Positions 797-49,224 of a stretch of DNA of 49,224 bases are shown one piece after another. The DNA comes from Candidatus Thorarchaeota archaeon (GTDB lineage: Archaea > Asgardarchaeota > Thorarchaeia > Thorarchaeales > Thorarchaeaceae), in the NCBI GenBank assembly GCA_016839605.1, contig JAEOTX010000100.1, positions 1 to 49,224 on the forward strand. The letters run 5' to 3'. The first letter of the stretch is position 1; each line of letters begins with the position of its first letter. A model generated the notes under the pieces. That model saw only the letters and a program-made list of their open reading frames with translations, did no database searches and had not been told where the DNA came from. A program made the position numbers and the translations under genes.

Positions 797-1630
797 CTAC
801 CGCTTGTGGCCACGCATCCAGTAGTCCTTACCTGCGATTGCCTTTTCCTCGTCCATCTCTGCTAGTATCTTCACAGCTTCATTCCCACAGGCAATTACAT
901 CTTCTTCTCCTGCGACTGCAAACTTATCCCTGATCCTATTGGCATACACCGCACAAACAACACCTGATCTGAAACCAAAGATGTTTGTTAGAGTGAAGAT
1001 GGTAGCAGCCTCCATCTCAAAATTCGCCACGTTCGCCTTTTGGAGGTCTTCAATCAGAGTTTCGCTGAAGCTCTGTGTATAGCCATTGAAGCCTGGCCGA
1101 GACTGGCCAAGATAGAACGAGTCTGTTGAGGCTGATATTCCTAGGTGATACTTCATACCTAGAGTGTCCGCAGCTTCTACCAGCGCCATGACCACCTCAT
1201 ATGATGCGCTTGCAGGGAACTCAGGTCTAACATATTGCCTACTCGTGCCATCAAGTCTGACAGCACCTGTAGAAATAATCAAGTCCCCTATCTCTATCTC
1301 CTCTTTGAGAGTGGCACACGATCCCACACGGATGAAGTTCTTGACACCTACGTTTGCCAGTTCTTCAACAGCAATCGCTGTGCCTGGACCCCCAATGCCC
1401 GTTGAACAGGCTGAGATTGGTGTCCCCTTAAACACCCCTGTGTGAGTCACGTACTGCCTATGAGCTGCAACTTCCTGAAATGAGTCCCAATTAGAGCTTA
1501 TCTTTGCCACTCGTTGAGGGTCTCCAGGGAGCAGCACGGTCTCTGCAACCTCTCCTGGTTTCACCTCGATATGGTATTGCTCGCGCTCAGCAGTTTCAGG
1601 TCTTCGTGCAGAAACTGTGTCTTTCGGCAT
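797..1630 (-). CDS. udp: Uridine phosphorylase / PNP-family nucleoside phosphorylase
   Basis: 277 aa; LPGDPQRV, GTGIGGPGTAIAVEEL, IRVGSCATL, NFEMEAATIFTL motifs. Confidence 0.9.
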   Translation of the reverse strand: MPKDTVSARRPETAEREQYHIEVKPGEVAETVLLPGDPQRVAKISSNWDSFQEVAAHRQYVTHTGVFKGTPISACSTGIGGPGTAIAVEELANVGVKNFIRVGSCATLKEEIEIGDLIISTGAVRLDGTSRQYVRPEFPASASYEVVMALVEAADTLGMKYHLGISASTDSFYLGQSRPGFNGYTQSFSETLIEDLQKANVANFEMEAATIFTLTNIFGFRSGVVCAVYANRIRDKFAVAGEEDVIACGNEAVKILAEMDEEKAIAGKDYWMRGHKR

Positions 1631-1847
1631 GATTATCCCTTCTGTCTCATCATTACTAGGCTATTTGAGTTTCGGGCCTTCCAACACATCATTTACACTA
1701 CCAACAAACTATTATACGTCCATAGAATATTTGCTCTTCGTTCGGGATAGGGTTTCCGAAACATCTATTACAAACTCCAAAGGGGCCCAATCCTGTCAGA
1801 GGGTAACTGATGCCCTCTAAACAATCTGGAAACGGAGCGAGAATAGA

Positions 1848-2996
1848 TTGGTTGAAACCACCATTAGCGTGATCAAAGCCGACATTGGTTCGTTGGCTGG
1901 TCATGTTGTAGTACCCGATTTCCTGCTTGAGTTCGCTAGAAAGGAGCTAAAGGCAGGTGTGGAAAAGAAGATCATCAACGACTTTCATGTAACACATGCT
2001 GGAGATGATTTAGAGCTAATTATGACCCACTTCAAGGGTGAGAATAACGAAGAGGTCCACCGCTTAGCTTTTGACACATTCATGAAGGGAACCGAGCTGG
2101 CTCGTGAGAAGAAGATCTATGCTGCGGGACAAGACATCCTTTCAGACACCTTCAGTGGTAATGTCAAAGGGATGGGCCCTGGTTCAGCAGAGATGACTAT
2201 CGAGGAACGAAAGTCTGAGCCTTTTGCAATCTTCATGGCCGATAAGACCGAGCCTGGGGCATTCAATCTACCCCTGTTCAAGATATTCGCTGACCCGTTC
2301 AATACTGCAGGACTCATTATTGATCCAAACCTTCACGATGGCTTCACATTCGTGGTCCAAGACATCATGAAGGATGTACCATGCTTCGTTGACATGAAAT
2401 GTCCTGAGGAGATGTACGACTTGCTTGCTCTTCTCGGGAGTACTGGAACCTTTACAATAAAGAAGATCTATCGTGCAGACGGTATGGTCTGTGCGTCTGT
2501 CAGTACAGACAAACTTCACGCCGTAGCAGGCAAGTATGTTGGAAAAGACGACCCTGTTGCAATTATCCGGGCACACTCAGGTCTTCCAGCGATGGGAGAA
2601 GTGCTTGAAGCCTTCACAATTCCTCATCTAGTCGCTGGTTGGATGCGCGGCTCACATGCTGGGCCCTTGCTTCCTGTTGCACTAAAGGACTCAAGGTGTA
2701 CCAGATTTGATGGCCCGCCTCGTGTTATCGGTCTGGGCTTCCAGGTTTCTAATGGAATGCTTGTTGGTCCCATTGATCTATTTGACGACATTGCGTTTGA
2801 CATCACTCGCCAGCGTGGAATGGAGATTGCAGACTATCTTCGGCAACATGGACCATTCGAGTTCCATCGGCTATCATCGGATCGGATGGAGTATAGTACA
2901 CTGCCAAAGGTGCTCGACAAGTGTAGTACTCGTTTCACCGAAGAAGAGATAGTCCCAACAGGCAAAGCCAAGGATACTTCTGACTCTGCAGAGTAG
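1848..2996 (+). CDS. fbp: Fructose-1,6-bisphosphate aldolase/phosphatase (archaeal bifunctional type)
   Basis: 382 aa with TTG start; SVIKADIGSLAGH N-terminus, DDLELIMTH, ARRKDAKS-class architecture replaced by the usual FBPA/P blocks (GMGPGSAEM, EPGAFNLPLFKIFADPFNTAGLIIDP). Confidence 0.93.
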   Translation: MVETTISVIKADIGSLAGHVVVPDFLLEFARKELKAGVEKKIINDFHVTHAGDDLELIMTHFKGENNEEVHRLAFDTFMKGTELAREKKIYAAGQDILSDTFSGNVKGMGPGSAEMTIEERKSEPFAIFMADKTEPGAFNLPLFKIFADPFNTAGLIIDPNLHDGFTFVVQDIMKDVPCFVDMKCPEEMYDLLALLGSTGTFTIKKIYRADGMVCASVSTDKLHAVAGKYVGKDDPVAIIRAHSGLPAMGEVLEAFTIPHLVAGWMRGSHAGPLLPVALKDSRCTRFDGPPRVIGLGFQVSNGMLVGPIDLFDDIAFDITRQRGMEIADYLRQHGPFEFHRLSSDRMEYSTLPKVLDKCSTRFTEEEIVPTGKAKDTSDSAE

Positions 2997-2998
2997 AT

Positions 2999-3025
2999 GC
3001 GGGACAGAAGTCCCGCTTTCTCTTT
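2999..3025 (+). terminator. Stem-loop plus T-rich tract downstream of FBP aldolase/phosphatase
   Basis: GCGGGAC-agaa-GTCCCGC (7 bp perfect stem) followed by tttctcttt, starting just after the stop codon at 2996. Confidence 0.6.
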
Positions 3026-3037
3026 GATTCCCGAGAA

Positions 3038-3355
3038 TCAACCTGTTCTCTTGATTATATGATAACCAAATTCAGTTTTGACTGGATCTGTGGTCATAGC
3101 TCCAATATTGAGAGCATAGACCGCCTTTTCAAACTCTTTCACCATCTCTCCTCTACCAAAGCAACCAAGGTTCCCACCACGCTTCTTCGAAGAACAATCA
3201 CTGTATTGCTTACAGAGAGCTGCGAAGTCTTCTCCCTCCCTAATTCTGCTGATTATCTCAAGCGCCTGACTATGCTTCTTAACCAGAATATGGCTGGCAC
3301 ATACCTTGCCTCCTCCACCGCCCTTCTTCTTCTTGGCTTTGCTCTTCTTGCCCAT
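3038..3355 (-). CDS. Parvulin-type peptidyl-prolyl isomerase with Lys/Gly-rich N-terminal tail
   Basis: 105 aa; ASHILVKKHSQAL, GGNLGCFGRGEMVKEFEKAVYAL, TEFGYHIIKR rotamase motifs; N-terminus MGKKSKAKKKKGGGGGK. Confidence 0.9.
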   Translation of the reverse strand: MGKKSKAKKKKGGGGGKVCASHILVKKHSQALEIISRIREGEDFAALCKQYSDCSSKKRGGNLGCFGRGEMVKEFEKAVYALNIGAMTTDPVKTEFGYHIIKRTG

Positions 3356-3614
3356 GTGTCACACCACAAAAGCCCTTGGAAAACATCGCAATAAGCACTA
3401 CGATACTGGATGTCAGTTGTAGACAGGGTTCTGCCTCTCTCCTCGACAAAAGAGGCACATGAGATTCTGGAATGTGGAGAGCAATTTGGGAAGATTGTTC
3501 TAGTTCAATAGAACGCGGCTTTCATTCTGGATAGAGAGCGAGTAATACCGTGGTGTCAATCTGGAAATGACACGCTTTCATTAGCGTGTTTGCCACCTAC
3601 ATGGTTGGTCAAGA

Positions 3615-3845
3615 ATGAAAGTAGTTACGATTTGCCTGCCTGAATCTTATGTCGATGGCTTGGACAAGCTCATTGGCCAAAGCAAATACCCTAACCGCTC
3701 TGAGGTAATCAGAATTGCTATTCGCGACCTCCTTGTGGATGAGTTGTGGGGAGACCGAACCCAATCGAAATCTATTCCACTAATTGCCCAACTGCAAGAA
3801 CTAGCCTCTGCCCAAAAGATGACTCCTGCTGATCCATCGACCTAG
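3615..3845 (+). CDS. Ribbon-helix-helix (CopG/NikR-like) transcriptional regulator
   Basis: 76 aa; MKVVTICLPESYVDGLDKLIGQSKYPNRSEVIRIAIRDLL is a classic RHH motif. Confidence 0.88.
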   Translation: MKVVTICLPESYVDGLDKLIGQSKYPNRSEVIRIAIRDLLVDELWGDRTQSKSIPLIAQLQELASAQKMTPADPST

Positions 3846-3960
3846 TTGTACAATCAAATTACCTTTTTCTGTAAGTACTGTCTTTCGAACTCTGTCGACT
3901 TATTTCAGCGACAAAGGGAACTAATCGTGAATTTAGAAAGTCGACCTTTCAAAGGAGACC

Positions 3961-4554
3961 GTGCGCAAGATGGAAAGAATCAAGAAACTATTTGGTCGTG
4001 ACGAAGAGGAAGAAGAAGTAAAAGAAGCTCCTGCTGCTGAGGAAGCTGCTCCAGAGGAAGCAGCAGCACCTGCTGAGGTTATTGAGGAAGTAGCTGAGCC
4101 TGAGCCAGAAGTAGCTGCAGAGCCAGATGAACCATTCCCAGTTGATGGAGCTGCTACAATTCCATACCATTCAGAGATCACAGACCGATTGCAGTATATG
4201 TTCAATGATTCTAACATCGCCGCGAATATAGAGGGGACTGATAAGTTCACAATCGAATTCATGGCTATGGGTGAACGATTCAATTTCATCAAAGAAGCTC
4301 TGAGCGAAGTCAAGTATGGAATAGGGTCAGCGTCTGATGAGGATGTCTTCATACGTATCTCAAATGATGCTGTAGCGGAGTTGCTGAGTGCGCCTAACTT
4401 TGAGGAGTTCAGAAAAATATACATGAAATATTATAGGAGTCCTGATGCTGGGAAATTCGTCAAGATTGAGCTTCGCAAGGACCTTGTTTGGATGAACCGC
4501 CATGGATATGCTCGGGTTCCTCTTCTGAAGCTCTTAGTTGGTCAGGTCCGATAA
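3961..4554 (+). CDS. Conserved hypothetical protein with acidic Glu/Ala-rich N-terminus; C-terminal domain possibly SCP2-like
   Basis: 197 aa, GTG start, with an RBS-like aaaggag just upstream. SCP2-like call is tentative (DEDVFIRISNDAVAELLSAPNFEEF pattern). Confidence 0.6.
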   Translation: MRKMERIKKLFGRDEEEEEVKEAPAAEEAAPEEAAAPAEVIEEVAEPEPEVAAEPDEPFPVDGAATIPYHSEITDRLQYMFNDSNIAANIEGTDKFTIEFMAMGERFNFIKEALSEVKYGIGSASDEDVFIRISNDAVAELLSAPNFEEFRKIYMKYYRSPDAGKFVKIELRKDLVWMNRHGYARVPLLKLLVGQVR

Positions 4555-4623
4555 ATCTCCGATCAATAAGCAACACAACTTATTAGCGGTTGCTACTCGA
4601 ATCCTCTGCCCAAGGCGCCATAG

Positions 4624-5334
<711 letters not shown>

Positions 5335-5390
5335 TCCATTCCGGTTCATTTTTCACGGGATCCCTTGCCATCCAGACTTGGCGATTGTAG

Positions 5391-6272
5391 GTGAAAGTGA
5401 CACTAGAATGCGCTCATTGTTTGCTTGAGAGAGCAATAAATCAGGTGAAGTTAGCAACAGATGATCCAGAAATGCAGATGAATGTGACTACGGCCATGCT
5501 TGATTTCCTTAGTAAGAGCTTCAATATGGACGCTGTTCCTAGTCATATTGGCACTGACCGTGACCTCTTGGTCCAAGAAATGACTGGAAAAGACCCCTAT
5601 GCAGAGCTCAAACGCGTTTCGAATGCTATGGCACTGGAAATCTTTCCAGATCTAAGGCAGCTTGTGGACGAATTTTCTGGTACTGCAGGTAGGTTCAGGA
5701 GAGCCACGCTCATTGCAGCAGCAGCTAATGCAATCGAATTCGATGTGTCTGGACGGGACTTTGATTTGGATGAACTCAGAGGAATCATTGAGCGTGTTGA
5801 ATCTGATCTTGCGGTCGATGAAGTGGATGATTTCATGCACCTTTGTCAGGACACAAAAGAAGTCCTATACCTGTTGGACAATGCAGGAGAAGTTGTCCTA
5901 GATATGATTCTGATTTCTGAGATCAAGAAACTCGGACCGAAAGTGGTTGCAGTAGCAAAGGGGGGACCTATTCTAAATGATGCCACTATGATTGATGCCG
6001 AGGAGGTTGGTCTCGATGGATGCGCGGACAAGGTGATTCATACTGGTGCCGCGGCAATCGGAGTCAATCTTGAAAGAAACTCCGAAGAGTTCCTTTCAGT
6101 TTTCCGTAATGCCGAACTGATAGTGGCTAAGGGGATGGGCAACTTTGAGTCGTTAACAGAAATGAAGCCTCATTGCCCAATTGTACATATCCTCAGAACA
6201 AAATGTCCTCCAGTAGCCCAACATGTAGGAACAGGTCTCAATCGGAATGTTGTTCTTGTGAGAAGACCTTGA
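5391..6272 (+). CDS. DUF89 / damage-control phosphatase (ARMT1-like) family
   Basis: 293 aa, GTG start; CAHCLLERA, YLLDNAGEVVLD, VAVAKGGPILNDAT, VAKGMGNFESL, RTKCPPVA. Confidence 0.88.
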   Translation: MKVTLECAHCLLERAINQVKLATDDPEMQMNVTTAMLDFLSKSFNMDAVPSHIGTDRDLLVQEMTGKDPYAELKRVSNAMALEIFPDLRQLVDEFSGTAGRFRRATLIAAAANAIEFDVSGRDFDLDELRGIIERVESDLAVDEVDDFMHLCQDTKEVLYLLDNAGEVVLDMILISEIKKLGPKVVAVAKGGPILNDATMIDAEEVGLDGCADKVIHTGAAAIGVNLERNSEEFLSVFRNAELIVAKGMGNFESLTEMKPHCPIVHILRTKCPPVAQHVGTGLNRNVVLVRRP

Positions 6273-6290
6273 TGGACGCACTTTCTAGGA

Positions 6291-7115
6291 TTAGCCCTTT
6301 GAGAGAGTCTTAGTTACAGAATCTGATTTTGTATACTCGATTTTAAGATCGGGAAATTGCAGGCTGAGTTGATGTTTCAAGCGGTTCATACCCGGCTCTT
6401 CAGTGACAAATGCTCCTGCTTCATAGATTTGCAATCCTTCTTCAGCAGCCAATAGTCTTACCTCAGGAGATAGCTCACCGGTGACTACTGTAGTGATGTT
6501 TTGCTTTTTAGCAGCCAAAATCTCTGGAACATCCAAAAGACTTCCTGGAAAAACCAGAGTCCGACCCACCTCTTCATCAAGGTCTCCTGAGAACTTGACG
6601 AATTCAATACCAAGTTTTTCAGTCAGTTGATTCGCAAACAGTGAATGATTCATGCTGCTTTTGGGTTGGAATATTCGACCTGCAGGAACAAGATCTCCTG
6701 TGTCTCCCATTACTAAGAACTCGTCAGTCTTGCTATATCCTAAGGCTTCGACAAGCGCGTCCGCAATTCCGTCTCGGGCGCAGATCCATGAACTTCCAAG
6801 TATGTAGCTCGAGATGTAGTTCTTAGTCAGAAGACGTACTCGGATCAGATCAAGACCTGAAAGCCTGTCAATCGCGAATGGGAATAGTGGGCAATGAGTC
6901 ACAAGCAGATTCGCCTTGTCTTGAGTGGCCTTAGCTACCACTCTTCCAGAGGGATATGTGGCTATGATGACTCTGTTGACCGTCGTTTTCTCCTGTTCAT
7001 TTTCTGTCTGGGGGCCAATCTCAACTCTCGAAGGAAGACCACCGAATACTAGATGCGGTGGGGCAATCATCTCGAGATGCTTCACGATTGTCAGTAGAGT
7101 AGTCACTTGCAACAC
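6291..7115 (-). CDS. NIF3 / GTP cyclohydrolase I type 2 homolog family
   Basis: 274 aa; KANLLVTHCPLFPF, LTKNYISSYILGSSWICARDGIADALVEALG, VVTGELSPEVRLLAAEEGLQIYEAGAFVTEEPGM. Confidence 0.8.
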   Translation of the reverse strand: MLQVTTLLTIVKHLEMIAPPHLVFGGLPSRVEIGPQTENEQEKTTVNRVIIATYPSGRVVAKATQDKANLLVTHCPLFPFAIDRLSGLDLIRVRLLTKNYISSYILGSSWICARDGIADALVEALGYSKTDEFLVMGDTGDLVPAGRIFQPKSSMNHSLFANQLTEKLGIEFVKFSGDLDEEVGRTLVFPGSLLDVPEILAAKKQNITTVVTGELSPEVRLLAAEEGLQIYEAGAFVTEEPGMNRLKHQLSLQFPDLKIEYTKSDSVTKTLSKG

Positions 7116-7202
7116 CTGATTAGATTGTTAGATGCACAACATGCTAGTTCAGGGATACCCCTGTCTTATTCTTTGTCATGAATAGGAGTAACAGACTAGA
7201 AT

Positions 7203-7646
7203 CTATTCCTCTATATCCTCGTCGTCTATTATCTCATCATCATAGGAATAGAGGTCTTCGAGTTCTTTGTCAATAGCTTCGGGTTCCGGCTCATCCTCAA
7301 TGACCTCAAGTTCCGGCTCTTTTTCAGGCGCTTCCTCAACGACTTCCAGTTCTGGCTCCTCGTCAATGACCTCAAGTTCAGGTTCTTCTTCCATGACCTC
7401 AATTTCGGGTTCCTGATCGATGACTTCCAGCTCTGGTTCTTTCTTCTTCTTTGGAGCCTTCTTCTTAGGCTTGGCCTTCTCCTTCTTCTCGGTCACAACC
7501 TGTGCGGAGGGCTTCTTCTTGAATGACCAGTATTCTGTTCGTGCTTTGCGATGCTTACGCAATTTTCTGAAGTCTACCTGCTGTGGATTCTGAGTCTTTC
7601 TAATACGTATCAGGTTTCGCTTTGCAGTCTTCTCTTTGTTGACCAT
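7203..7646 (-). CDS. Bipartite basic/acidic protein with tandem EPELEVIDE-type nonapeptide repeats
   Basis: 147 aa; strongly basic N-terminus (KRNLIRIRKTQNPQQVDFRKLRKHRKARTEYWSFKKK) then about six degenerate EPELEVIxx repeats. Confidence 0.65.
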   Translation of the reverse strand: MVNKEKTAKRNLIRIRKTQNPQQVDFRKLRKHRKARTEYWSFKKKPSAQVVTEKKEKAKPKKKAPKKKKEPELEVIDQEPEIEVMEEEPELEVIDEEPELEVVEEAPEKEPELEVIEDEPEPEAIDKELEDLYSYDDEIIDDEDIEE

Positions 7647-7770
7647 CAGAAACTCACCGTCGCTTCTTCAGCGTGCTCCGCTGCGGCTGTTGTTATAACT
7701 GTGTCGGAGAATTATATCGGCTAGAGGAAGGCTTTTTGTTCCGGTATTGAGTGAAGTCTACTCGGAATAG

Positions 7771-8304
7771 GTGAATATCGAGATGAACCCCGCACGCAAG
7801 GATCAGACAGTCAGTATTCGAGTAAGGCTTGATAGAGCGACCCTTGATAGAATTGATGGAATCGTTGGTGAGCGGGGCCGCCAGAGATTCATCAAGGATG
7901 CCATATTCTGGAAACTTGATCAGGAGATTCCTCCTATAGTATTCGAGTTGAAAGAAAGTGTGGAGCAACTACAGGAAAGAGTTGATCATCTTGAGGGTAC
8001 TCGCTCTACCAGTGTCTATATTGGAGGTATGTCTGACACATTCAAGATGCAGGTCTGTAGAGATGATTTGGACAGGAAGATTATCGCCTACTTTCTCCAG
8101 CATGAGGGTGCATCAACACCTGAATTAGCCAAGAAGCTCCTGAATGACCCCTCAAAGCGCAAGACAATTCATGTGCGAATTCGAAAACTGAATGAGCGTT
8201 CAGAGGACATGCTCGGAAAGCGGATTCTACGGTACGAGAAGGGTGAGGTCAAGGAGAAGCGTGGTGCTTGGTGGCTTGTTGAGCCTGATCTTGTTCGGGA
8301 GTAA
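7771..8304 (+). CDS. DNA-binding protein: ribbon-helix-helix-like N-terminus plus winged-helix-like C-terminus
   Basis: 177 aa, GTG start; VSIRVRLDRATLDRIDGIVGERGRQRFIKDAI, then STPELAKKLLNDPSKRKTIHVRIRKLNE. Confidence 0.65.
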   Translation: MNIEMNPARKDQTVSIRVRLDRATLDRIDGIVGERGRQRFIKDAIFWKLDQEIPPIVFELKESVEQLQERVDHLEGTRSTSVYIGGMSDTFKMQVCRDDLDRKIIAYFLQHEGASTPELAKKLLNDPSKRKTIHVRIRKLNERSEDMLGKRILRYEKGEVKEKRGAWWLVEPDLVRE

Positions 8305-8325
8305 TCAATATCGCCTGCAGCAAAT

Positions 8326-8333
8326 CTATAAAG
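8326..8333 (+). promoter_or_regulatory. Archaeal TATA-box candidate for tRNA-Arg(CCG)
   Basis: ctataaag centred about 25 nt upstream of the tRNA 5' end. Confidence 0.6.
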
Positions 8334-8353
8334 AGCCGCCCTCGAGGAGTCTT

Positions 8354-8431
8354 GGGGCCGTAGTCTAGCCTGGATAAGGCACCAGCCTCCGGAGTTGGTA
8401 ATCCCCGGTTCGAATCCGGGCGGTCCCGCCA
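8354..8431 (+). tRNA. tRNA-Arg (anticodon CCG), CCA encoded
   Basis: GGGGCCG/CGGTCCC acceptor stem; anticodon arm CCAGC-CTCCGGA-GTTGG; T arm CCCGG-TTCGAAT-CCGGG; G73 then CCA. Confidence 0.95.
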
Positions 8432-8509
8432 CTATTTGTGTTCAAATCAAATCGATTGGAGTTTAAAAGCCCGGCTAAGACACACTTGTCTGACGCGAGG
8501 TCGAAATCG

Positions 8510-8716
8510 ATGAGCATATTGAAGGGCTTACGTTCACATCCTGAAAGAGTGGTTGAACGTTTCACCAGATACCTTAATGGTCCAATGGGACGTACGGTCC
8601 TGGAAACTTTGGATGAAGGTGAAAGCTTCATTTTACAAACATCAGAGCATACTTTCAGGGTCACAAGGAAGAGGGGCAAAGCAGTAGTAGAACTGATTTC
8701 GGTGTCATTGCTTTGA
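8510..8716 (+). CDS. Small hypothetical protein between two tRNA-Arg genes
   Basis: Internal ATG at 8510 in the 8438-8716 ORF; MSILKGLRSHPERVVERFTRYLNGPMGRTVLETLDEGESFILQTSEHTFRVTRKRGKAVVELISVSLL. Confidence 0.5.
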   Translation: MSILKGLRSHPERVVERFTRYLNGPMGRTVLETLDEGESFILQTSEHTFRVTRKRGKAVVELISVSLL

Positions 8717-8760
8717 ACCAGCATCTTGTCTGACTCTATTACAGATTTGCAACGAAGAGT

Positions 8761-8768
8761 CTATAAGC
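8761..8768 (+). promoter_or_regulatory. Archaeal TATA-box candidate for tRNA-Arg(GCG)
   Basis: ctataagc centred about 25 nt upstream of the tRNA 5' end, same spacing as for the first tRNA. Confidence 0.55.
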
Positions 8769-8788
8769 CGACTGAGGCCTCATCCGTT

Positions 8789-8866
8789 GGGGCCGTAGTC
8801 TAGCCTGGATAAGGCACCAGCCTGCGGAGTTGGTAATCCCCGGTTCGAATCCGGGCGGTCCCGCCA
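8789..8866 (+). tRNA. tRNA-Arg (anticodon GCG), CCA encoded
   Basis: Same 78 nt as the first tRNA except the wobble base (CTGCGGA loop instead of CTCCGGA). Confidence 0.95.
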
Positions 8867-8951
8867 CTGTTTTTCATTACTTTTATCATCGGCGTGAAGC
8901 TTAAATGAGCGGGAAATTCGACAAATATGCTAGTCTTGTTCTGGAAAGACA

Positions 8952-28866: not shown

Positions 28867-30363
28867 ATGGATGTTCCGAATGTAACACGGAGTGCTCTTG
28901 TAGCAAATCTCAAGAAACATCGCTTGTTCATCATTGTACTTCTATTAGCTGCAATAGTCTGGACATGGGTGTTTATTCAGTCGGCAATAGATTTCGTAAC
29001 TAGCACAAGTTGGCCTAGAGCTGTCTGGAACGGTTATGGGTCCATCAATCTTTTCGGCTTCCCCATTAGATTCGCATACGAGGGCTGGGCTGATCATGAC
29101 TATTTCTATCACAGCTGGGCCAATCAGTTTCTTAGTGGTCTTCTGCCGTATACGCCAGAATTTGACCTCTTATTTCAGAATGAAGCTTACTATAATGTAC
29201 CATACTTCTTCCCGCCTCTCTATCTCTATGCTTGCGTCATTGGCAAGTTGCTTCATTCAGACCTAGGCATAGGTCTAGTTCTCACTGTATTTGGTTTCAT
29301 TACAGCGTTCCCAATCTACGGCATTTCCACCTATCTCTCTGGGAATAGAAATGTGGGAGCCGTTGCAGCTGCAACCTATTTATTCAGCCCCATAATACTC
29401 TATCATACCGTCTTCGAGTGGTTGAACCCTGCTCCGTTTGTCTTTTTCTCAATGCTCTCCTTCTACCTTCTAATGCACAACCGAAGACTCTCCGGAGTTC
29501 TCGCTATGACAACAGCCGCTCTTTTCAAGCAGACCGCCTTCTTCTTTGCTCTACCCCTAATTGCATTCGTATTGAAACGCGCCCCGCAGCCTATTTCCGA
29601 CGAAGAAACACCCCCAGAAGAAGAGGAACAAAATAAGCGGCCGGCGAGTGATGAACTAGATTTGAAAGGATTCGCGAAAATAGCACTTGTTGTATGTGGA
29701 TATGCCGCTGTCCTCTCTTTGCCTTACATTCTGGACCCTTTCAACTATGGAAATGCGATTTTCTCAAGAGCAGGCGGGACCTATCTGACCGATCTGACAT
29801 CGCCGCCACCCATCAGCTTTCCTATAACCCTCGCTGTTCTCTTCATCATGATTGGTGCTCCTGAATGGGTTTCTGAACTTGTCAATCTGACGACTTTTTA
29901 CTCAATAGGAATTATCATTGCTATTGTTCCGCTATTAGCTTTGATGCTGCTGGAGGTGAAGAAAGACCAGGATCTTCAGGCATACTGGCGGAGAATCATT
30001 TTCTTGACTTTGCTCTTGATGCTCTGCGTCCACATATTATCGCCACGTGGAATTTACAAATACTACACTGTTGCACTAGTACCATTCTTCTCAATTCTAT
30101 CAACATCTAGTCTCTGCCAGAGGACCTCTGAAAACGTTCGTGTATCTTTTCCCATGCTACTTGTTCCGATGGTTTGCAGTTTCGCAATAATGATTCCTGC
30201 AAGAACTACCTACCTGCTTTACCTAATCTTGATACTTGCTGGATATATTCTGCATAAAGCATTCTCATATACATATGAATTGGGAGCAGGACCAGCCAGA
30301 AAATTAGGCCAGCGGCTGATGGCCTCGGTACGTGGAGATTCGTCGCTGAAGGTTACTGAATGA
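28867..30363 (+). CDS. Multi-pass membrane protein, GT-C glycosyltransferase-like (paralog B)
   Basis: 498 aa; collinear motifs with the upstream gene (FPPLYLYACVIGKL, WLNPAPFVFFSMLSFYLL, AALFKQTAFFFALPL, SPRGIYKYYTVALVPFFSILST). Confidence 0.75.
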   Translation: MDVPNVTRSALVANLKKHRLFIIVLLLAAIVWTWVFIQSAIDFVTSTSWPRAVWNGYGSINLFGFPIRFAYEGWADHDYFYHSWANQFLSGLLPYTPEFDLLFQNEAYYNVPYFFPPLYLYACVIGKLLHSDLGIGLVLTVFGFITAFPIYGISTYLSGNRNVGAVAAATYLFSPIILYHTVFEWLNPAPFVFFSMLSFYLLMHNRRLSGVLAMTTAALFKQTAFFFALPLIAFVLKRAPQPISDEETPPEEEEQNKRPASDELDLKGFAKIALVVCGYAAVLSLPYILDPFNYGNAIFSRAGGTYLTDLTSPPPISFPITLAVLFIMIGAPEWVSELVNLTTFYSIGIIIAIVPLLALMLLEVKKDQDLQAYWRRIIFLTLLLMLCVHILSPRGIYKYYTVALVPFFSILSTSSLCQRTSENVRVSFPMLLVPMVCSFAIMIPARTTYLLYLILILAGYILHKAFSYTYELGAGPARKLGQRLMASVRGDSSLKVTE

Positions 30364-31603
30364 GCTTCTCCAGCTCTTTCTTCTTCTTCTCCAGATTCTT
30401 ATTCAGCGTCTTCAGACGTGTATCTAGCTTCTCAACTTGCTCAGTGTAGGTGTCTTTAGGCATCGCACCGGACGAGTGTCTTTCTTCAATGTGGTCCCGC
30501 AGCTGTTGGACCGACTTGATCTCTTTCTCCAATGCCTTTGCGTCTGCTTCAATTTCTGCTGCCTGATTTTCTTCATCAGTCTGGAATTGCCTTGATGGAA
30601 TCATGACGCCAAGCTGTGACTGTGTTTTTTCTGCAAAGTCCTGAAATTGATCACGAAGCATCTCAATGTTTTTGTCCACGTTGGCTAACTTCTTGTCCAA
30701 TTTGCCGATGTCTTTCTGTAGGTCGAAAACAGCATTGACTAGTCTACGCATTGTCTTCTCCATCTCGGCGCTAGCTTCTACAGAAGCCTTTAGCTGTTTC
30801 TTTTCTTCCTTCTTCTCTTGGTCCTTTACAACCTCACTTGGCTTAGCAGTCCTTATCTCTCCGCTCAGCCATTTGATGGCATTTACTGCGAACGCTTGGT
30901 TGCCCTTATGCTTCATTCCCCCGCCTTTGCGAAATACCTCGTAGCTACCAACACAGAGTACACGTCCCTTGCCTGCCTCTGCAATCGCAATAACTGGCTT
31001 ATTCGGTGGGTCTGCCGTGTCTGATGTACTCGCTATTGTTGTTGCCTTAGTGGTCACATTGAGAGTACACCCAGAAGGAACAAGTATGTCTTGTACATCC
31101 TCCGTGACGGGATGAACTACCACGTTGGTGATGATAGGCATTGTCGGAAGGCCTGCATTGTTTCTCTCGTCTCGTACAGCTGTGTTCTCGAAGCTAATTC
31201 CAAAACCTTTCGACACTTGGCTCAAGTTATTCATCAGACCACGGTCTCCCCCCGACAGTGAGAGCAGCATCAGACCGCCTCCTTTCTTTACGTATCGCTT
31301 CAGAATATCAATCTCAGCTGGTCGCAGTTTTGAGCTGTTAGGACAACCGAAAACTATGGCATCTGCCCTTTCCAGATTCTTTGCGAGTATCATGTACTCA
31401 GTGTAGGGCTCGACATCGAAGTCATTGTCCTGCAAAATCTTAGCGAGTTGCGAATATGTCGTGTCGAGTCGGCCACGTTCATTTTGGGTCTGGTCAAAGA
31501 GAATGAGCTTCCTTCTTCCGCTCAATGGTATATCCCCCTGTCTAGAGGTAGTAGGATGAGATGGTGAAAGAGAACTAATGAGAGTTGTGTAGGTGTTATC
31601 CAT
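30353..31603 (-). CDS. GIFT-domain (IFT52/GldG-like) protein with C-terminal coiled coil
   Basis: 416 aa; ADAIVFGCPNSSKLRPAEIDILKRYVKKGGGLMLLSLSGGDRGLMNNLSQVSKGFGISFENTAVRD ... GCTLNVTTKATTIASTSDTADPPNKPVIAIAEAGKGRVLCVGSYEVFRKGG ... NAIKWLSGEI. No TM segment apparent. Confidence 0.65.
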   Translation of the reverse strand: MDNTYTTLISSLSPSHPTTSRQGDIPLSGRRKLILFDQTQNERGRLDTTYSQLAKILQDNDFDVEPYTEYMILAKNLERADAIVFGCPNSSKLRPAEIDILKRYVKKGGGLMLLSLSGGDRGLMNNLSQVSKGFGISFENTAVRDERNNAGLPTMPIITNVVVHPVTEDVQDILVPSGCTLNVTTKATTIASTSDTADPPNKPVIAIAEAGKGRVLCVGSYEVFRKGGGMKHKGNQAFAVNAIKWLSGEIRTAKPSEVVKDQEKKEEKKQLKASVEASAEMEKTMRRLVNAVFDLQKDIGKLDKKLANVDKNIEMLRDQFQDFAEKTQSQLGVMIPSRQFQTDEENQAAEIEADAKALEKEIKSVQQLRDHIEERHSSGAMPKDTYTEQVEKLDTRLKTLNKNLEKKKKELEKLIQ

Positions 31604-36591: not shown

Positions 36592-37446
36592 TTATTGAGG
36601 TACGCCACACCATGGACACACCTTGGTGCCAGCTCTAAATGTTCTGCCGCAAGAGAAACAAAACGTTCTATCTTCTCGGCTATCTGAACTCTCACTGAAT
36701 GGACTGAGTTCTCCCTGAGCAAACAAGGAACCAACACCTTCTGCATCGCCTGAACGAATACTACATGTTGAGCCAGTTGCCCCTTCCCCTTCTCCGAATA
36801 GATTGCTCAGGTCTGCATAGGAGTCGGATCTTTCGGGCTCTCCAAAGGATGAGGCTGTTTCTATAGGTGTGGATGCTTCATGACGTCCCCACGGACTTGG
36901 GTCACGCTCAGGATAACTTCTCGGTTGCAAGCTTCGATCTAGTGAATCGAAATCTTTGCGGTAATCATCTCCACCATACCCTCTATCAACAGCGGGTTGG
37001 TTTGCTAGGGACGAACCATAGCTATCATACTCACCTCGAGAGCCTCTGTCTGCGTAGCCCCTCGCGGATTCGATGAACCTGATGTGCGCATCACCCTTCA
37101 AACGCTCATATTCGTCTGGTGTTAGACCCAGCATTTCCAGCGCACGATCTCTCTCAGCGCATCTTTTTGACATTGGACAACAGAAAGAAAGGCTTGCGTG
37201 GCAAAGTGATGCCATCGCTCTGTCTTGTCGAGACTTAAAGATAGGAGTTATTCGGCGTCTACCAAGGACAAGTGAATCGCCACTTGAACGAAGTTCTGCG
37301 TAACCACTCTGAGCAAGTGCCTCCACTATCTCCCTCGCTGGATATGCCCTCCCTTCAATCACTATATGTCCTTCAGTCTTATCTAATCGTACAGGACGTT
37401 CCACGTCTCTGTCATCTTCACGGCTTGGGTATCTCGTGATAGCCAC
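36592..37446 (-). CDS. Zinc-ribbon protein with disordered linker and internal Cys cluster
   Basis: 284 aa; C-terminal CFSCGRTFRAGTKVCPWCGVPQ; internal SLCHASLSFCCPMSKRCAERD; Gly/Tyr/Ser-rich middle. Confidence 0.65.
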   Translation of the reverse strand: MAITRYPSREDDRDVERPVRLDKTEGHIVIEGRAYPAREIVEALAQSGYAELRSSGDSLVLGRRRITPIFKSRQDRAMASLCHASLSFCCPMSKRCAERDRALEMLGLTPDEYERLKGDAHIRFIESARGYADRGSRGEYDSYGSSLANQPAVDRGYGGDDYRKDFDSLDRSLQPRSYPERDPSPWGRHEASTPIETASSFGEPERSDSYADLSNLFGEGEGATGSTCSIRSGDAEGVGSLFAQGELSPFSESSDSREDRTFCFSCGRTFRAGTKVCPWCGVPQ

Positions 37447-44114: not shown

Positions 44115-44888
44115 ATGAAGGTCTCTGTGATGCAAGAACGTCTTCAATCTGAACTCTTTGCCTCAATAGCCACACTTGACCAACTGAAGAAGATGTTCGA
44201 TATGGGAATTGTCGACATTGGGTCATATCAGAGGGAGTCTGAAGCATTGGCGAGTGAAGTCAAGGCTAACATCGCGGACTTGAAGCGAATCGGTCTCGAT
44301 TTTGGTACTTTCATTCAGACTGAACGTGTAGCAGAGCGGTTTCCTGATGCTGTTATGCTTCTTGATCTCTCCCGACGTGAAAATCGCTTCCGCGGCGACA
44401 ATATGACTATGGACGAATACTATGACCACATTGGCCTTGCGATTCTTGATGTGGCAACAGCACATGCCTCAAAGGGTCTCATGGGCTTAGCCGAGCTCAT
44501 TGTAGAAGTTGTGAAGCGCATGCCTGAGCTAAAGGCTATCAGTTATAGCGACGTGATTGAGGCGGTCAATCGTGTAGCTGAACATGGGCTTATTCCTGGA
44601 ATTCGAACGCTTCGCGGGGGTGTGAAAGTTGTCGAGCTCCGCCCACTCGAGCTTAGAAGGGACCAAGCGGATGTGGTCAATCTTGCAGCATCAAAGGGAT
44701 ATGTTTCCGTAGAGGAAGTAATGATGCTCATGAAGTGGTCCGAGGATCATGCACGACAAGTGCTCTCTAGTCTAGTAGATGCTGGAATGGCTGTGGCGGA
44801 TATTCGATTCTCCACAGGCGGAAGGTATTACTTCCCAGGTCTACGCGCCAGAGAAAGCAGCGATGGTAGGGCTACGCCCTCTCGTTAG
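44115..44888 (+). CDS. ESCRT-II EAP30-domain protein (Vps22/Vps36-like)
   Basis: 257 aa; FATFI-like LDFGTFIQTE, MTMDEYYDHIGLAILDVATAHASKGLMGLAELIVEVVKRM, then tandem winged-helix-like segments. Confidence 0.82.
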   Translation: MKVSVMQERLQSELFASIATLDQLKKMFDMGIVDIGSYQRESEALASEVKANIADLKRIGLDFGTFIQTERVAERFPDAVMLLDLSRRENRFRGDNMTMDEYYDHIGLAILDVATAHASKGLMGLAELIVEVVKRMPELKAISYSDVIEAVNRVAEHGLIPGIRTLRGGVKVVELRPLELRRDQADVVNLAASKGYVSVEEVMMLMKWSEDHARQVLSSLVDAGMAVADIRFSTGGRYYFPGLRARESSDGRATPSR

Positions 44889-45619
44889 ACGATAATCTTA
44901 ATCGCACCTTTCTTCTTATCCACCCAACTAGCAAGACCCTTTTCTACCATGATAAGAAGAACCCGGTGAAGGTCTTTTTCTGGAAGTTTCGCGAAGCTGT
45001 AGTCCTCTTCCTGAATCACGATTGACTTCACGTCTAGTCTCTGCTTTCCTGACTTCAATGCCCAATCATAGATGATGTCGACCCAATCCTCTAGGAATCT
45101 CCAGTAGACTCGTAATTGCCTTCGGTTCCTGTCCAACCACTCTGCAATCTCTTTCTGTACAAGCACCCCACAAATCAACTTGAATGAGTCGACCTTGTTT
45201 GTGATATCATTGAATGGGGGCTCTTTGATGAAGGCGGTTACTGATAAGACGTGAACATCCCGAGCTTCCATCCAACGAAGGACAAAATCTGACCACTCCT
45301 CGGCCCACATATCCCTATCTTCTTCGCGAGGAGGTATGCCGTACATCCACTCTGTCTGTCTGAGGTCTCCCCAAGGGGGCATCAGAATGACTTCTTCTGG
45401 CTCAACTAAAGCTTCCTCAATCTTGACCGCTACATCCTCAGTTTCCTCAACGGTTGTCGTTTCCTTATGCTTTACTACTACCTCTGGCTTATGGGTTGAT
45501 TCAACTTCCGCTTCGTTTTCCTTAACTGGAGTAGGTTCTTCCACCTTGGATTCTGTTTCTGTGGTTTCAGGGGCAGATTTGGTCTTCTCTTTCTCTCTGC
45601 GCCGTTCTCTGACCCCCAC
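44885..45619 (-). CDS. ESCRT-II Vps25-like protein with charged disordered N-terminal extension
   Basis: 244 aa; MPPWGDLRQTEWM, EEWSDFVLRWMEARDVHVLSVTAFIKEPPFNDI, IAEWLDRNRRQLRVYWRFLEDWVDIIYDWALKSGKQ, second winged helix at C-terminus. Confidence 0.8.
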   Translation of the reverse strand: MGVRERRREKEKTKSAPETTETESKVEEPTPVKENEAEVESTHKPEVVVKHKETTTVEETEDVAVKIEEALVEPEEVILMPPWGDLRQTEWMYGIPPREEDRDMWAEEWSDFVLRWMEARDVHVLSVTAFIKEPPFNDITNKVDSFKLICGVLVQKEIAEWLDRNRRQLRVYWRFLEDWVDIIYDWALKSGKQRLDVKSIVIQEEDYSFAKLPEKDLHRVLLIMVEKGLASWVDKKKGAIKIIV

Positions 45620-45622
45620 TCC

Positions 45623-46840
45623 CTAGGACCCCTCCGCCCAATCGATATACCTCTTCACATCCTCTGGAGCTGTTGCAGGCCTGATATTCTCAATGGCTTG
45701 CAGCAAGTCTTCTCTTGATACTGGTCGAACATCTAGAATCTCTTCCTCTTCATCCATTCTTCCAGTCCGTTGTAAGTCCCTGATAGGCTCCATAGCTGCC
45801 TCTCTGCAGACGACACTTATGTCGCGTCCACTGTAGCCCTCACTGAGGTCTGCAAGCTCCTCATAGTCTACATCGGGGGCAACCTCGATGTCTTCCATGT
45901 GTATCTCAAAGATTTTCTTCCTTGCAGGTCTGTCTGGTAGTGGCACGTGGATCTTCTTCTCAAATCTGGACCGAAGTGCAAAGTCCAACTCCCATGGGAG
46001 ATTGGTCGCACCAATCACCGTGACTCTGTCTTCCAAATCACTCGCGAGTCCCTGTAGTTCGGTGAGGAGCTGAGTCTTTAGTCTTCTTTCTCCTCCCACA
46101 TCATCGCCAGACCTAGAAACTCCTACAGAATCAAGTTCATCCATGAAGACTATAGCAGGTTGATTTCGTCTGGCCAAGGTGAAGAGATTCATGACCAGCT
46201 TCTCAGACTCTCCAAGCCACTTGCTTACAATGTTGCCAGCAGACACATTGAAGAACGTGGCATTCACTTCTGCCGCGACTGCCTTTGCAATCAAGGTCTT
46301 TCCGCAGCCTGCAGGTCCGTAGAACAGTATCCCCCTCCAAGGTTGACGGGACTTTCCTTTGAAGAGCTCTGGGTGCTTCATCGGTGCCACAATTGCGTCA
46401 TGAATTGCCTGCTTTGCATCTTCCAAGCCTGCAACATCACTCATCTTGACACTGGGTTTCTCAGTAATGATTGTATCAGCTATCATCTCCTGAAGTCTTC
46501 GTGTGTCTTCATCCACCTCTGCTTCGGCTTCTGCTGTCTTCTCCATTGCGGGTTCTGACTCCGCACTTGGGCTGAAGACAGGTGGTGTTGTCAGTCCCTC
46601 TGGAGGTCCTCTAGCCTTCTTCTTAATTCCAGAGATGTAGCGAACTCTGTCAACGCATTCCTGTGCCCTGTCAAGATAGTGTTTCTGGACTGAGGGCAGA
46701 GATGCGGCATTTGACAGTTTGATCAGAATCTTGCTTGCTTTCAGATAATACTGAGCAGCTTCTTTCTTCATTCCTCTCTGATCCAATTCTATGGCCTTAT
46801 CTAGGAGATTTCTCAGGCCTTGGTCTACTCTATCAGACAT
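45623..46840 (-). CDS. Vps4/CdvC-like MIT + AAA ATPase
   Basis: 405 aa; MIT-like N-terminus (AIELDQRGMKKEAAQYYLKASKILIKL), VKMSDVAGLEDAKQAIHDAIVAPMKHPELF, YGPAGCGKTLIAKAVAAE, IVFMDELDSV, Vps4-type C-terminus. Confidence 0.95.
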   Translation of the reverse strand: MSDRVDQGLRNLLDKAIELDQRGMKKEAAQYYLKASKILIKLSNAASLPSVQKHYLDRAQECVDRVRYISGIKKKARGPPEGLTTPPVFSPSAESEPAMEKTAEAEAEVDEDTRRLQEMIADTIITEKPSVKMSDVAGLEDAKQAIHDAIVAPMKHPELFKGKSRQPWRGILFYGPAGCGKTLIAKAVAAEVNATFFNVSAGNIVSKWLGESEKLVMNLFTLARRNQPAIVFMDELDSVGVSRSGDDVGGERRLKTQLLTELQGLASDLEDRVTVIGATNLPWELDFALRSRFEKKIHVPLPDRPARKKIFEIHMEDIEVAPDVDYEELADLSEGYSGRDISVVCREAAMEPIRDLQRTGRMDEEEEILDVRPVSREDLLQAIENIRPATAPEDVKRYIDWAEGS

Positions 46841-46981: not shown

Positions 46982-47635
46982 ATGCTAGTCTTGCAGGGCG
47001 AAGTCCCTGACGAAGTGGTGAGGCCGTTGGATTCACTTAGAAAGGCATTCAAATGGGGTCGGAAGAAACCCGACATTGGAGAGGTTTCCAGCCAACTCAG
47101 AATTCTAACCAAACAGCTTGCTCGTGAGAGAAACAAGCTAGAGAAGGAAGAGCGGGACACAAGAGCTCGCGCCATAAAGGCTCGCAAGGCTGGACAGACG
47201 GATGCCTTCAAGACTTACGCCACTGAAATGGTGCGCTTCCGAAGATACGCTCTTTCAACAGACAAAGCACGTCTTCAAATCCTCAAGATATTGGCTCATC
47301 TCAATCGCGCGCAGACTTCGGCAAGAACCGGCCGCGCACTTGAGCAAGTTGCAAAGATACTAGGAATGCTGGGTGACACAAGCGATACCCGGAAACTGGT
47401 GGAAAATGTTGATGAAATCACTCGCCGCCTAGATGAGTTTGAGATTGAAAGTGAAATATCTGCAGATGCACTTGATGCAAGTATGGAAGTAAGCTCAGAT
47501 GACCTGACCGCTGCTATGCAGGAAATTGACGTGGAGGTCGGACTGGCTGATGCAACTGTGGCTGCTAAGCCTGCTTCTGAATCAGACACCCTTGAGAAAG
47601 ACATCAAGGATCTGGAGCGCGAACTGGGTATCTAG
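46982..47635 (+). CDS. ESCRT-III (Snf7-domain) protein, Vps2/24/46-like
   Basis: 217 aa; basic N-terminal helices (LRKAFKWGRKK, LRILTKQLARERNKLEKEERDTRARAIKARKAGQTDAFKTYATEMVRFRRYAL), acidic C-terminal half ending in DTLEKDIKDLERELGI. Confidence 0.88.
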   Translation: MLVLQGEVPDEVVRPLDSLRKAFKWGRKKPDIGEVSSQLRILTKQLARERNKLEKEERDTRARAIKARKAGQTDAFKTYATEMVRFRRYALSTDKARLQILKILAHLNRAQTSARTGRALEQVAKILGMLGDTSDTRKLVENVDEITRRLDEFEIESEISADALDASMEVSSDDLTAAMQEIDVEVGLADATVAAKPASESDTLEKDIKDLERELGI

Positions 47636-49195
47636 CTACCATCTATATCCTTGACCGTAACGAGATGAACGTTCGATTTCGCGTTTAGTGTGATACGAAT
47701 CACGCATCAGACCTCTATATCTTCTGATGAAGTCTTCGGGGACCAGATGGCCATTTCTCATCAGATGGACTGTTTCATTGATTGCATTCTGAATCTCCAT
47801 AGCGTTTCTTCTGAGATACTCCATATCAAATCCAGTGCCTCCATATGGCACCCCCTGCCTGTAGTCCACTCGTCCAATAGTGTTCTCAAGATGCTCTTTG
47901 AAAGCCCTTGGATGGTCATATGGGTTCTCATTTCTGCCATATCCTGATGGCATCGTTCTTGAATGGAAAAATTCTGATCTCCCTGGGTAACGCTGCGGTG
48001 CTTCTACGGCTGTGTTGCTTGTTGAAAGGAGTGAATACACTAAACCCTCTATCTTCAATCTGACGTCGCTAATGTTGAGGTTCTTCTGTTCGATTTTCCT
48101 AACCCTTTGTAAGTCGCTCTGCATATACTTCTCAAACTTTCTCGCAATCTCAAAATAATCTGGCATGACCTTCTTTGTATCCTCACTGCAGGAGATTTTA
48201 AGGTCGCCCTGTTTGAGTCGCAATACAAGCTTCTTTCGAAGCCGACCATATTCCTCAATCCCTTTCAAATACATTAATGGGAATTGGAATACAATCTCTG
48301 TCTTCTTGCGTAATCTTCCTGTTTCAGCTACTAGGAATAACCTCTTGTTTGTGATGAAGAGAGTGCCATAGGCCTTGTCATTCTTCAAGAAGTTACTACC
48401 TACCACCCTAATGTCTGGCAATGCAGCCACGGGCAATTCATTGACAGAGAGTTCGCCATGTTCATAGAAGTCAGCGAATTCTTTCCTGTGATAGCTCAAG
48501 CCGTCAAGTTGTGCCATCACCTCTTTGAGCCTCGGTCTAACCTCATTTAGGCTGTCATCCACATGCTGCTTGTAGTAGTTGCCTAGCTCCATCACCCTAT
48601 TCCTGACACCTTCGATGAACGGGAACTGAGCCGGAGTCCATTTGCTATAGTCGAGTAATCCCTTTGTTTCAGCGGCAATCTGCTTCGCAACTATTTCTGC
48701 TTGATTTCCTATTCGACTCTTAATTGCAGGCATCTCATCCTGTACGGACTCCACTTTCTCCTCAATCCAATGATAATGCAGGAAGTTTGCCATTCTGAGA
48801 GATACAAGCGTCCTCTTGGCATTGTCAAGTTTGGTCGTGAATTCTCTCAGTTTGGTATGGCCATATTGGATACTCATGATGGAATGTCTAAGCTCTTGAG
48901 CCAGAGTTCGCCTTCTCTCTTCCAGCAGGACAATCCGACTAGAGTGACACCGAGGGCATATGTCTGCCGTTCGTTTACCAGCATCAATATTCTCAGATTC
49001 ACACTCAGGACATGTGTCCAACGCCTCGTCCTGTGACAGAGTCAATGTTGCATGACAGTCGCGGCACATATGATACTCTTTGGTCCGAGAATCGAGGCAA
49101 TCGGAACACAGCACTGTACCACAATCTTCACACATGTGACTAGCTCTGTTTCTTTGACAGACAGGGCACCGATGAGATGAGGAATCTAGAGTCAA
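47636..49195 (-). CDS. Composite ESCRT-associated protein: multi-zinc-knuckle N-terminus, helical region, PH/GRAM/GLUE-like domain, steadiness-box-like C-terminus
   Basis: 519 aa; six CxxC knuckles (CPVC, CEDC, CSDC, CRDC, CPEC, CPRC); YGTLFITNKRLFLVAETGRLRKKTEIVFQFPLMYLKGIEE PH-like strand pattern; C-terminal INETVHLMRNGHLVPEDFIRRYRGLMRDSYHTKREIERSSR. Confidence 0.7.
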   Translation of the reverse strand: MTLDSSSHRCPVCQRNRASHMCEDCGTVLCSDCLDSRTKEYHMCRDCHATLTLSQDEALDTCPECESENIDAGKRTADICPRCHSSRIVLLEERRRTLAQELRHSIMSIQYGHTKLREFTTKLDNAKRTLVSLRMANFLHYHWIEEKVESVQDEMPAIKSRIGNQAEIVAKQIAAETKGLLDYSKWTPAQFPFIEGVRNRVMELGNYYKQHVDDSLNEVRPRLKEVMAQLDGLSYHRKEFADFYEHGELSVNELPVAALPDIRVVGSNFLKNDKAYGTLFITNKRLFLVAETGRLRKKTEIVFQFPLMYLKGIEEYGRLRKKLVLRLKQGDLKISCSEDTKKVMPDYFEIARKFEKYMQSDLQRVRKIEQKNLNISDVRLKIEGLVYSLLSTSNTAVEAPQRYPGRSEFFHSRTMPSGYGRNENPYDHPRAFKEHLENTIGRVDYRQGVPYGGTGFDMEYLRRNAMEIQNAINETVHLMRNGHLVPEDFIRRYRGLMRDSYHTKREIERSSRYGQGYRW

Positions 49196-49224
49196 GTGTA
49201 TACCTCCTGCAGCCTATGGAGTAA

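Follow-up and report, generated by a model that had tools for sequence, protein, structure and literature searches.

A zinc-finger, PH and steadiness-box protein in a thorarchaeal ESCRT locus and its possible role as an ESCRT-I-like adaptor

The locus and its conservation

The window, by which we mean the whole 49,224-nucleotide stretch of Candidatus Thorarchaeota DNA that was analysed, has at its right end, which is also that of contig C22, the gene of a protein which we call ZPS (Table 1). From the N-terminus on, this protein has six CxxC pairs, a stalk of four helices, a PH domain and, as its C-terminal part, a helical hairpin. Its TTG start codon has an AGGAGG 7 nt upstream and an in-frame stop just upstream, and the start falls at the same position in all 13 thorarchaeal orthologues checked (11 TTG, one ATG and one GTG), each of which has a Shine-Dalgarno-like site before it; the open reading frame, its coordinates and its frame are therefore sound. 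The contig shares exactly its last 127 nt with contig C136 (window 49098-49224 and L188 1-127), an assembly overlap from which the sequence continues. Beyond it, C136 carries tldD/pmbA-like, arginyl-tRNA synthetase-like and TFIIB-like genes, named by eye.

The neighbours of ZPS are ESCRT genes, as the preliminary description of this DNA had proposed, and the EAP30 part does sit in a separate, Vps22-like protein. ZPS and the ESCRT-III gene snf7 converge in 32/32 named thorarchaeal loci with enough flanking sequence, the gap between them being about 15 nt at most; in 31 of these 32 loci Vps4 lies within 10 kb. For other Asgard archaea, Snf7 is encoded within 3 kb on that side of ZPS in 15 of 23 loci. 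As the two genes converge, this arrangement does not imply co-expression.

By protein search, ZPS is present in 46 of the 47 genomes of the class Thorarchaeia and in 171 of 232 Asgard genomes. When a profile was used on 39 Asgard entries whose matches had mostly been poor or missing, most tested members of families f5-f8 gave full-length or long ZPS matches, whereas in families f2, f9, f10, f24, f26 and f29 it was mostly the tail alone that matched, possibly in other steadiness-box proteins. One compact Asgard ESCRT cluster (L058 of genome G048, 1515-8915) contains UEV-Vps23, Vps28, EAP30, Vps25, Vps4 and ZPS, and also holds two Snf7 genes and a separate Vps28-C-like ORF (7869-8162).

Table 1 Features of ZPS and of the neighbouring ESCRT genes in the window.
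Feature	Residues	Window positions	Strand	Remarks
Whole ZPS gene (thorarchaeal Znr_CC_PH_SB)		47636..49195	-	519 aa, TTG start
Shine-Dalgarno-like AGGAGG		49203..49208	-	upstream of the ZPS TTG start
Four CxxC pairs	aa 10-47	49055..49168	-	probably one two-zinc B-box/FYVE/RING-like module
Last two CxxC pairs	aa 62-83	48947..49012	-	zinc ribbon
Four long helices	aa 91-243	48467..48925	-	stalk / helical bundle (AlphaFold2)
PH domain	aa 255-352	48140..48433	-	GRAM/GLUE/bacterial-PH type
Linker	aa 353-453	47837..48139	-	short helices, then poorly conserved and mostly disordered
Steadiness-box helical hairpin	aa 454-515	47651..47836	-	
ESCRT-III (Snf7) gene		46982..47635	+	convergent with ZPS, 0 nt between stop codons
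Vps4 ATPase		45623..46840	-	MIT, AAA, Vps4_C
Vps25-like ESCRT-II subunit		44885..45619	-	
Vps22-like EAP30 ESCRT-II subunit		44115..44888	+	fused N-terminal hairpin
Vps28-N-type hairpin	aa 1-85 of Vps22-like protein	44115..44369	+	putative partner for the steadiness box of ZPS

Domains of ZPS and related systems

When the single protein was compared with Pfam, NCBIfam and the PDB, only weak zinc and bacterial-PH matches were obtained and a steadiness box was not found. Family alignments of 22, 45 and 71 sequences were used, and in all three the six CxxC pairs, the PH core and the C-terminal hairpin are kept; the region between PH domain and hairpin varies in both sequence and length among homologues. 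With the 71-sequence alignment, AlphaFold2 gave a model of mean pLDDT 87.1 consisting of a zinc module (5-90), helices (91-243), a PH domain (255-352) of seven strands plus a C-terminal helix, and two long helices (454-480 and 486-515), the PH domain and these two helices mostly at pLDDT of about 90-97. The preliminary description had named a middle domain unlike PH and a tail without a hairpin as observations that would speak against it; the model has PH strands in the one place and two long helices in the other. The hairpin starts about 20 aa before the string that had been quoted for it. RhoGEF DH-PH proteins, which the full-length model matched in Foldseek at an rmsd of close to 20 A, were not taken as kin, since such matches mirror the combination of helices with a PH domain.

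The six CxxC knuckles that had been noticed near the N-terminus are confirmed at aa 10-83. In 20,000 shuffles of the protein, six CxxC pairs never fell within 78 aa, and every one of the 12 cysteines is shared by no fewer than 66 of the 71 homologues, whose identity goes down to about 15%, all 12 being invariant in the 18 thorarchaeal sequences checked. The first four pairs are spaced 8/9-4-10 in most members, and the distance from these to the final two pairs lies anywhere between 8 and 22; this pattern points to a single cross-brace module with two zincs, of B-box, FYVE or RING-like kind, and a ribbon apart from it, as opposed to the three equal ribbons that have been published. The fingers had also been compared with the NZF type, but none of the 71 homologues fits the NZF signature, nor does any of them contain the R(R/K)HHC-type PI3P motif of FYVE domains.

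The model supports a middle domain of PH fold and of GRAM/GLUE/bacterial-PH type. Compared alone by Foldseek, it had as its top two matches the MTMR2 GRAM domain (1.2e-4) and the GLUE domain of human EAP45/Vps36 (1.4e-4), with BBS5 (2.8e-4) and yeast Vps36 (7e-4) among the others, a target TM of 0.64 for mouse EAP45 GLUE, and a Foldseek probability of 1.00 shared by many PH folds. PH folds are common to many proteins that do not bind lipid. When a sequence profile is used instead, bacterial PH domains (0.0022) come out as the closest solved structures, with BBS5 matched weakly (0.18); among Pfam models GRAM is also matched in homologues, and Vps36_ESCRT-II is matched by 6 of 45 members, more weakly than bPH_3 or GRAM. 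Of the earlier GLUE-like reading, the PH fold and the presence of GLUE domains among the best matches are supported; as GRAM domains match equally well or better, the name GLUE says more than these matches allow.

The identification of the tail as a steadiness box was made through homologues, as the tail of the window protein alone falls below the Pfam steadiness-box model and a PF09454 search of its own genome at E 0.001 gave no match. A family profile of 71 ZPS sequences searched against 177,635 PDB sequences had its best C-terminal matches in the yeast STP22/Vps23 ESCRT-I core (3.2e-5, 7.9e-5 and 3.1e-4) and in human TSG101 (0.0024). Pfam Vps23_core was matched by 23 of 45 members (best 4.8e-6), three non-thorarchaeal copies passing its curated cut-off. 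Because iteration led a Vps28 HMM to pick up EAP30 and steadiness-box proteins, that HMM was replaced by separate non-iterated profiles, compared by hhalign with four controls; for the tails, these controls, which included coiled coils, reached at most 25%. On this scale the ZPS tails of other Asgards match Asgard Vps23 steadiness boxes at 98.8% (E 7e-17), thorarchaeal tails match other-Asgard tails at 95.8%, and the thorarchaeal tail matches the Vps23 steadiness box directly at 51-71%; it is divergent and retains the pattern E(D)F.RRY..L, in which F489, R491, R492, Y493 and L496 are invariant.

This architecture is already on record. The main text of Makarova et al. (2024, mBio; PMC10936438) describes it as Znr_CC_PH_SB (also printed Znr_PH_CC_SB), Asgard cog.011556, and proposes that the protein belongs to ESCRT-I and that its PH domain associates with membranes. 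Both of these proposals, like the architecture itself, are thus prior work. ZPS shares with that description the three zinc sites (all Cys4 in ZPS), the coiled coil (helices at aa 91-243), the PH domain, the steadiness box and an ESCRT gene neighbourhood, with no architectural difference from the main-text account; we place it there by architecture. That main text does not use the words Thorarchaeota or Thorarchaeia, and its passages considered here do not link Znr_CC_PH_SB to the absence of ubiquitin or to a Vps28N-Vps22 partner in this class.

ZPS resembles Vps23/TSG101 in having a C-terminal steadiness-box hairpin of Vps23-type sequence behind a helical stalk, and differs in lacking a UEV domain, in place of which it has the zinc module and the PH domain. 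With Vps36/EAP45 it shares a PH fold, which in Vps36 is a GLUE domain, and zinc fingers in one protein, as in yeast Vps36; unlike Vps36, it has neither EAP30 winged helices, which belong to the separate Vps22-like protein, nor the NZF signature, its zinc module is N-terminal and not inserted in the PH domain, and its PH domain is matched equally well by GRAM. The earlier idea that ZPS joins ESCRT-I and ESCRT-II modules survives for the steadiness box and for a PH domain with GLUE among its best matches, but not for NZF fingers. CdvA of TACK archaea, a membrane-recruiting ESCRT-III partner as ZPS may be, also has a hairpin of this kindred; its link to the steadiness box is noted in the main text of PMC10936438, and the ZPS profile matched CdvA at 0.0044 (PDB 9s9i_A); CdvA has a different N-terminal domain and no PH domain.

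Partner proteins in Thorarchaeia

The N-terminus of the thorarchaeal Vps22-like protein (an 80-aa segment) matches the Asgard Vps28 N-domain at 99.1% by hhalign (E 1e-18; controls below 4%), and PDB Vps28 chains weakly (0.64-0.75). In a phylum-wide search with the window protein, these N-terminal residues align, among the matches listed, solely within Thorarchaeia, and the listed matches from other Asgards begin at residue 56 or later. That Asgard proteins of the Vps22 family are fused to a steadiness box is already stated in the main text of Makarova et al. (PMC10936438); what is new here, judged by sequence comparison, is the Vps28 type of the hairpin, its restriction to one class among the matches listed, and its coupling with missing genes.

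The missing genes are those for ubiquitin, UEV and Vps28 above the cut-off, each found in none of the 47 thorarchaeial genomes, compared with 171, 56 and 147, respectively, of the 185 other Asgard genomes searched, all of these counts being drawn from incomplete metagenome genomes. For ubiquitin this extends the report of Hatano 2022 (PMC9192718). A divergent Vps28 may exist elsewhere in thorarchaeial genomes, and thorarchaeial BAR-Vps28 fusions were reported by Eme 2023. One ORF with a sub-threshold Pfam VPS28 match (contig C117 of genome G000; L187 6699-7934) reached 1.4% in hhalign and was not counted as Vps28; the 411-aa helical protein that it encodes, whose first 190 aa weakly match Pfam VPS28 and which occurs in several thorarchaeial genomes, is perhaps the BAR-type protein described as a Vps28 fusion by Eme 2023.

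Possible roles of ZPS

We consider it rather likely that ZPS is a membrane-reading, ESCRT-I-like adaptor which acts independently of ubiquitin and whose steadiness box docks on the Vps28-type hairpin of the Vps22-like protein. In such a mechanism the PH domain would bind a membrane lipid or a membrane protein, the zinc module would bind a protein that marks a site or a cargo, presumably not ubiquitin in Thorarchaeia, and the helical stalk and flexible linker would carry the steadiness box. Pairing of this box with the hairpin of its neighbour, for which yeast two-hybrid contacts between steadiness box and Vps28 and between steadiness box and Vps22 (PMC9192718) offer a precedent, would place ESCRT-II (Vps22 and Vps25) on the membrane, after which Vps25 would start the assembly of ESCRT-III (Snf7) and Vps4 would recycle Snf7.

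The best-surviving alternative, which we nonetheless regard as unlikely, is that ZPS, instead of substituting for Vps23, occupies the place that Vps37 has in eukaryotes as the third subunit of ESCRT-I. In Asgards that have Vps23 and Vps28 it would complete a three-hairpin headpiece with them, and in Thorarchaeia it would keep this place with reduced partners. Asgards have been reported to lack Vps37 (PMC9192718), and the L058 cluster encodes three separate steadiness-box proteins (UEV-Vps23, Vps28 and ZPS) within about 7.4 kb. Against this, the usual partners were not found in Thorarchaeia, and the ZPS tail is nearest to the Vps23 steadiness box (hhalign score 74, vs 53 for Vps28-N), Vps23 and Vps28 being the profiles compared.

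A role in reading ubiquitin, through zinc fingers or a GLUE-like face that would bind ubiquitylated cargo, had also been suggested for this gene, and the PH model does resemble the ubiquitin-binding EAP45 GLUE domain (2hth, 2dx5). For the thorarchaeal lineage the suggestion is unlikely to hold, because ubiquitin, UEV and free Vps28 above the cut-off were found in none of the 47 genomes while the zinc cysteines are invariant, and the NZF signature is missing from all 71 homologues; whatever conserved task the zinc module has in Thorarchaeia is thus unlikely to depend on canonical ubiquitin. As most other Asgard genomes searched do encode ubiquitin, such a role could hold outside Thorarchaeia, and for ZPS in general we think it quite improbable.

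Still less probable is a ligase or scaffold function of RING/B-box-like type for the N-terminal module, which would make ZPS an E3-like factor tethered to ESCRT. The ZPS profile matched the RNF4 RING (2.5e-6) and TRIM B-boxes (about 5e-4) among PDB sequences, and Pfam B-box and ANCHR B-box models matched 23/45 and 15/45 members; the RNF4 match, however, relies on two repeats in that chain, with the second half of the module alone aligning, the pattern is all-cysteine (C2-C2-C2-C2), and ubiquitin was not found in Thorarchaeia. We give equally little credence to a chance association with ESCRT genes, in which ZPS would be a general membrane protein of zinc-ribbon/PH type whose tail is SHOCT-like or a plain coiled coil. 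In favour of this, bPH_3 is the most widely matched PH model (25/45 members), and hairpins can be imitated by plain coiled coils. The reading is already disfavoured, since Vps23_core is matched by 23/45 members, SHOCT is absent from their 25 most-matched Pfam families, the coiled-coil controls stay low, and ESCRT neighbours recur in thorarchaeal and other Asgard loci alike.

To return to the ubiquitin-independent adaptor, ESCRT-I and ESCRT-II seem to be partly merged in Thorarchaeia, and this class-specific merger is the part worth following. A bolder version, which we put forward tentatively and think rather unlikely, is that Thorarchaeia have a ubiquitin-free ESCRT system in which ESCRT-I has collapsed onto ESCRT-II, with the Vps28 hairpin fused to the Vps22-like protein, UEV-Vps23 and ubiquitin gone, and ZPS alone providing membrane and cargo recognition and the second hairpin; in other Asgards ZPS would be the third headpiece subunit, filling in for the 'missing' Vps37, and in the form of its PH domain a GLUE-like domain would have served ESCRT-I before there was a Vps36. 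If the steadiness box does bind the Vps28-type hairpin, one archaeal class would have a stripped-down ESCRT-I/II unit that works without ubiquitin, and the membrane-remodelling core would be separable from the ubiquitin-sorting role. The likeness of the PH domain to both GRAM and Vps36 GLUE may reveal an earlier use of such domains by ESCRT. Together these proposals offer a concrete, testable view of ESCRT near the origin of eukaryotes.

Two further genes of the window were noted. The product of 36592-37446 (minus strand; 284 aa) has a middle that is probably disordered and a C-terminal CxxC-type zinc ribbon, with no clear Pfam family. That of 30353-31603 (minus strand; 416 aa) has an IFT52 GIFT domain (Pfam 4e-19), a coiled coil and a C-terminal hairpin which resembles steadiness boxes. 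Against the ZPS tails of other Asgards this hairpin reached 88% in hhalign, where controls stayed at or below about 5%, and hmmsearch gave 7.5e-7 for this one sequence; on these sequence matches the protein is a possible further ESCRT-I headpiece partner within the window.
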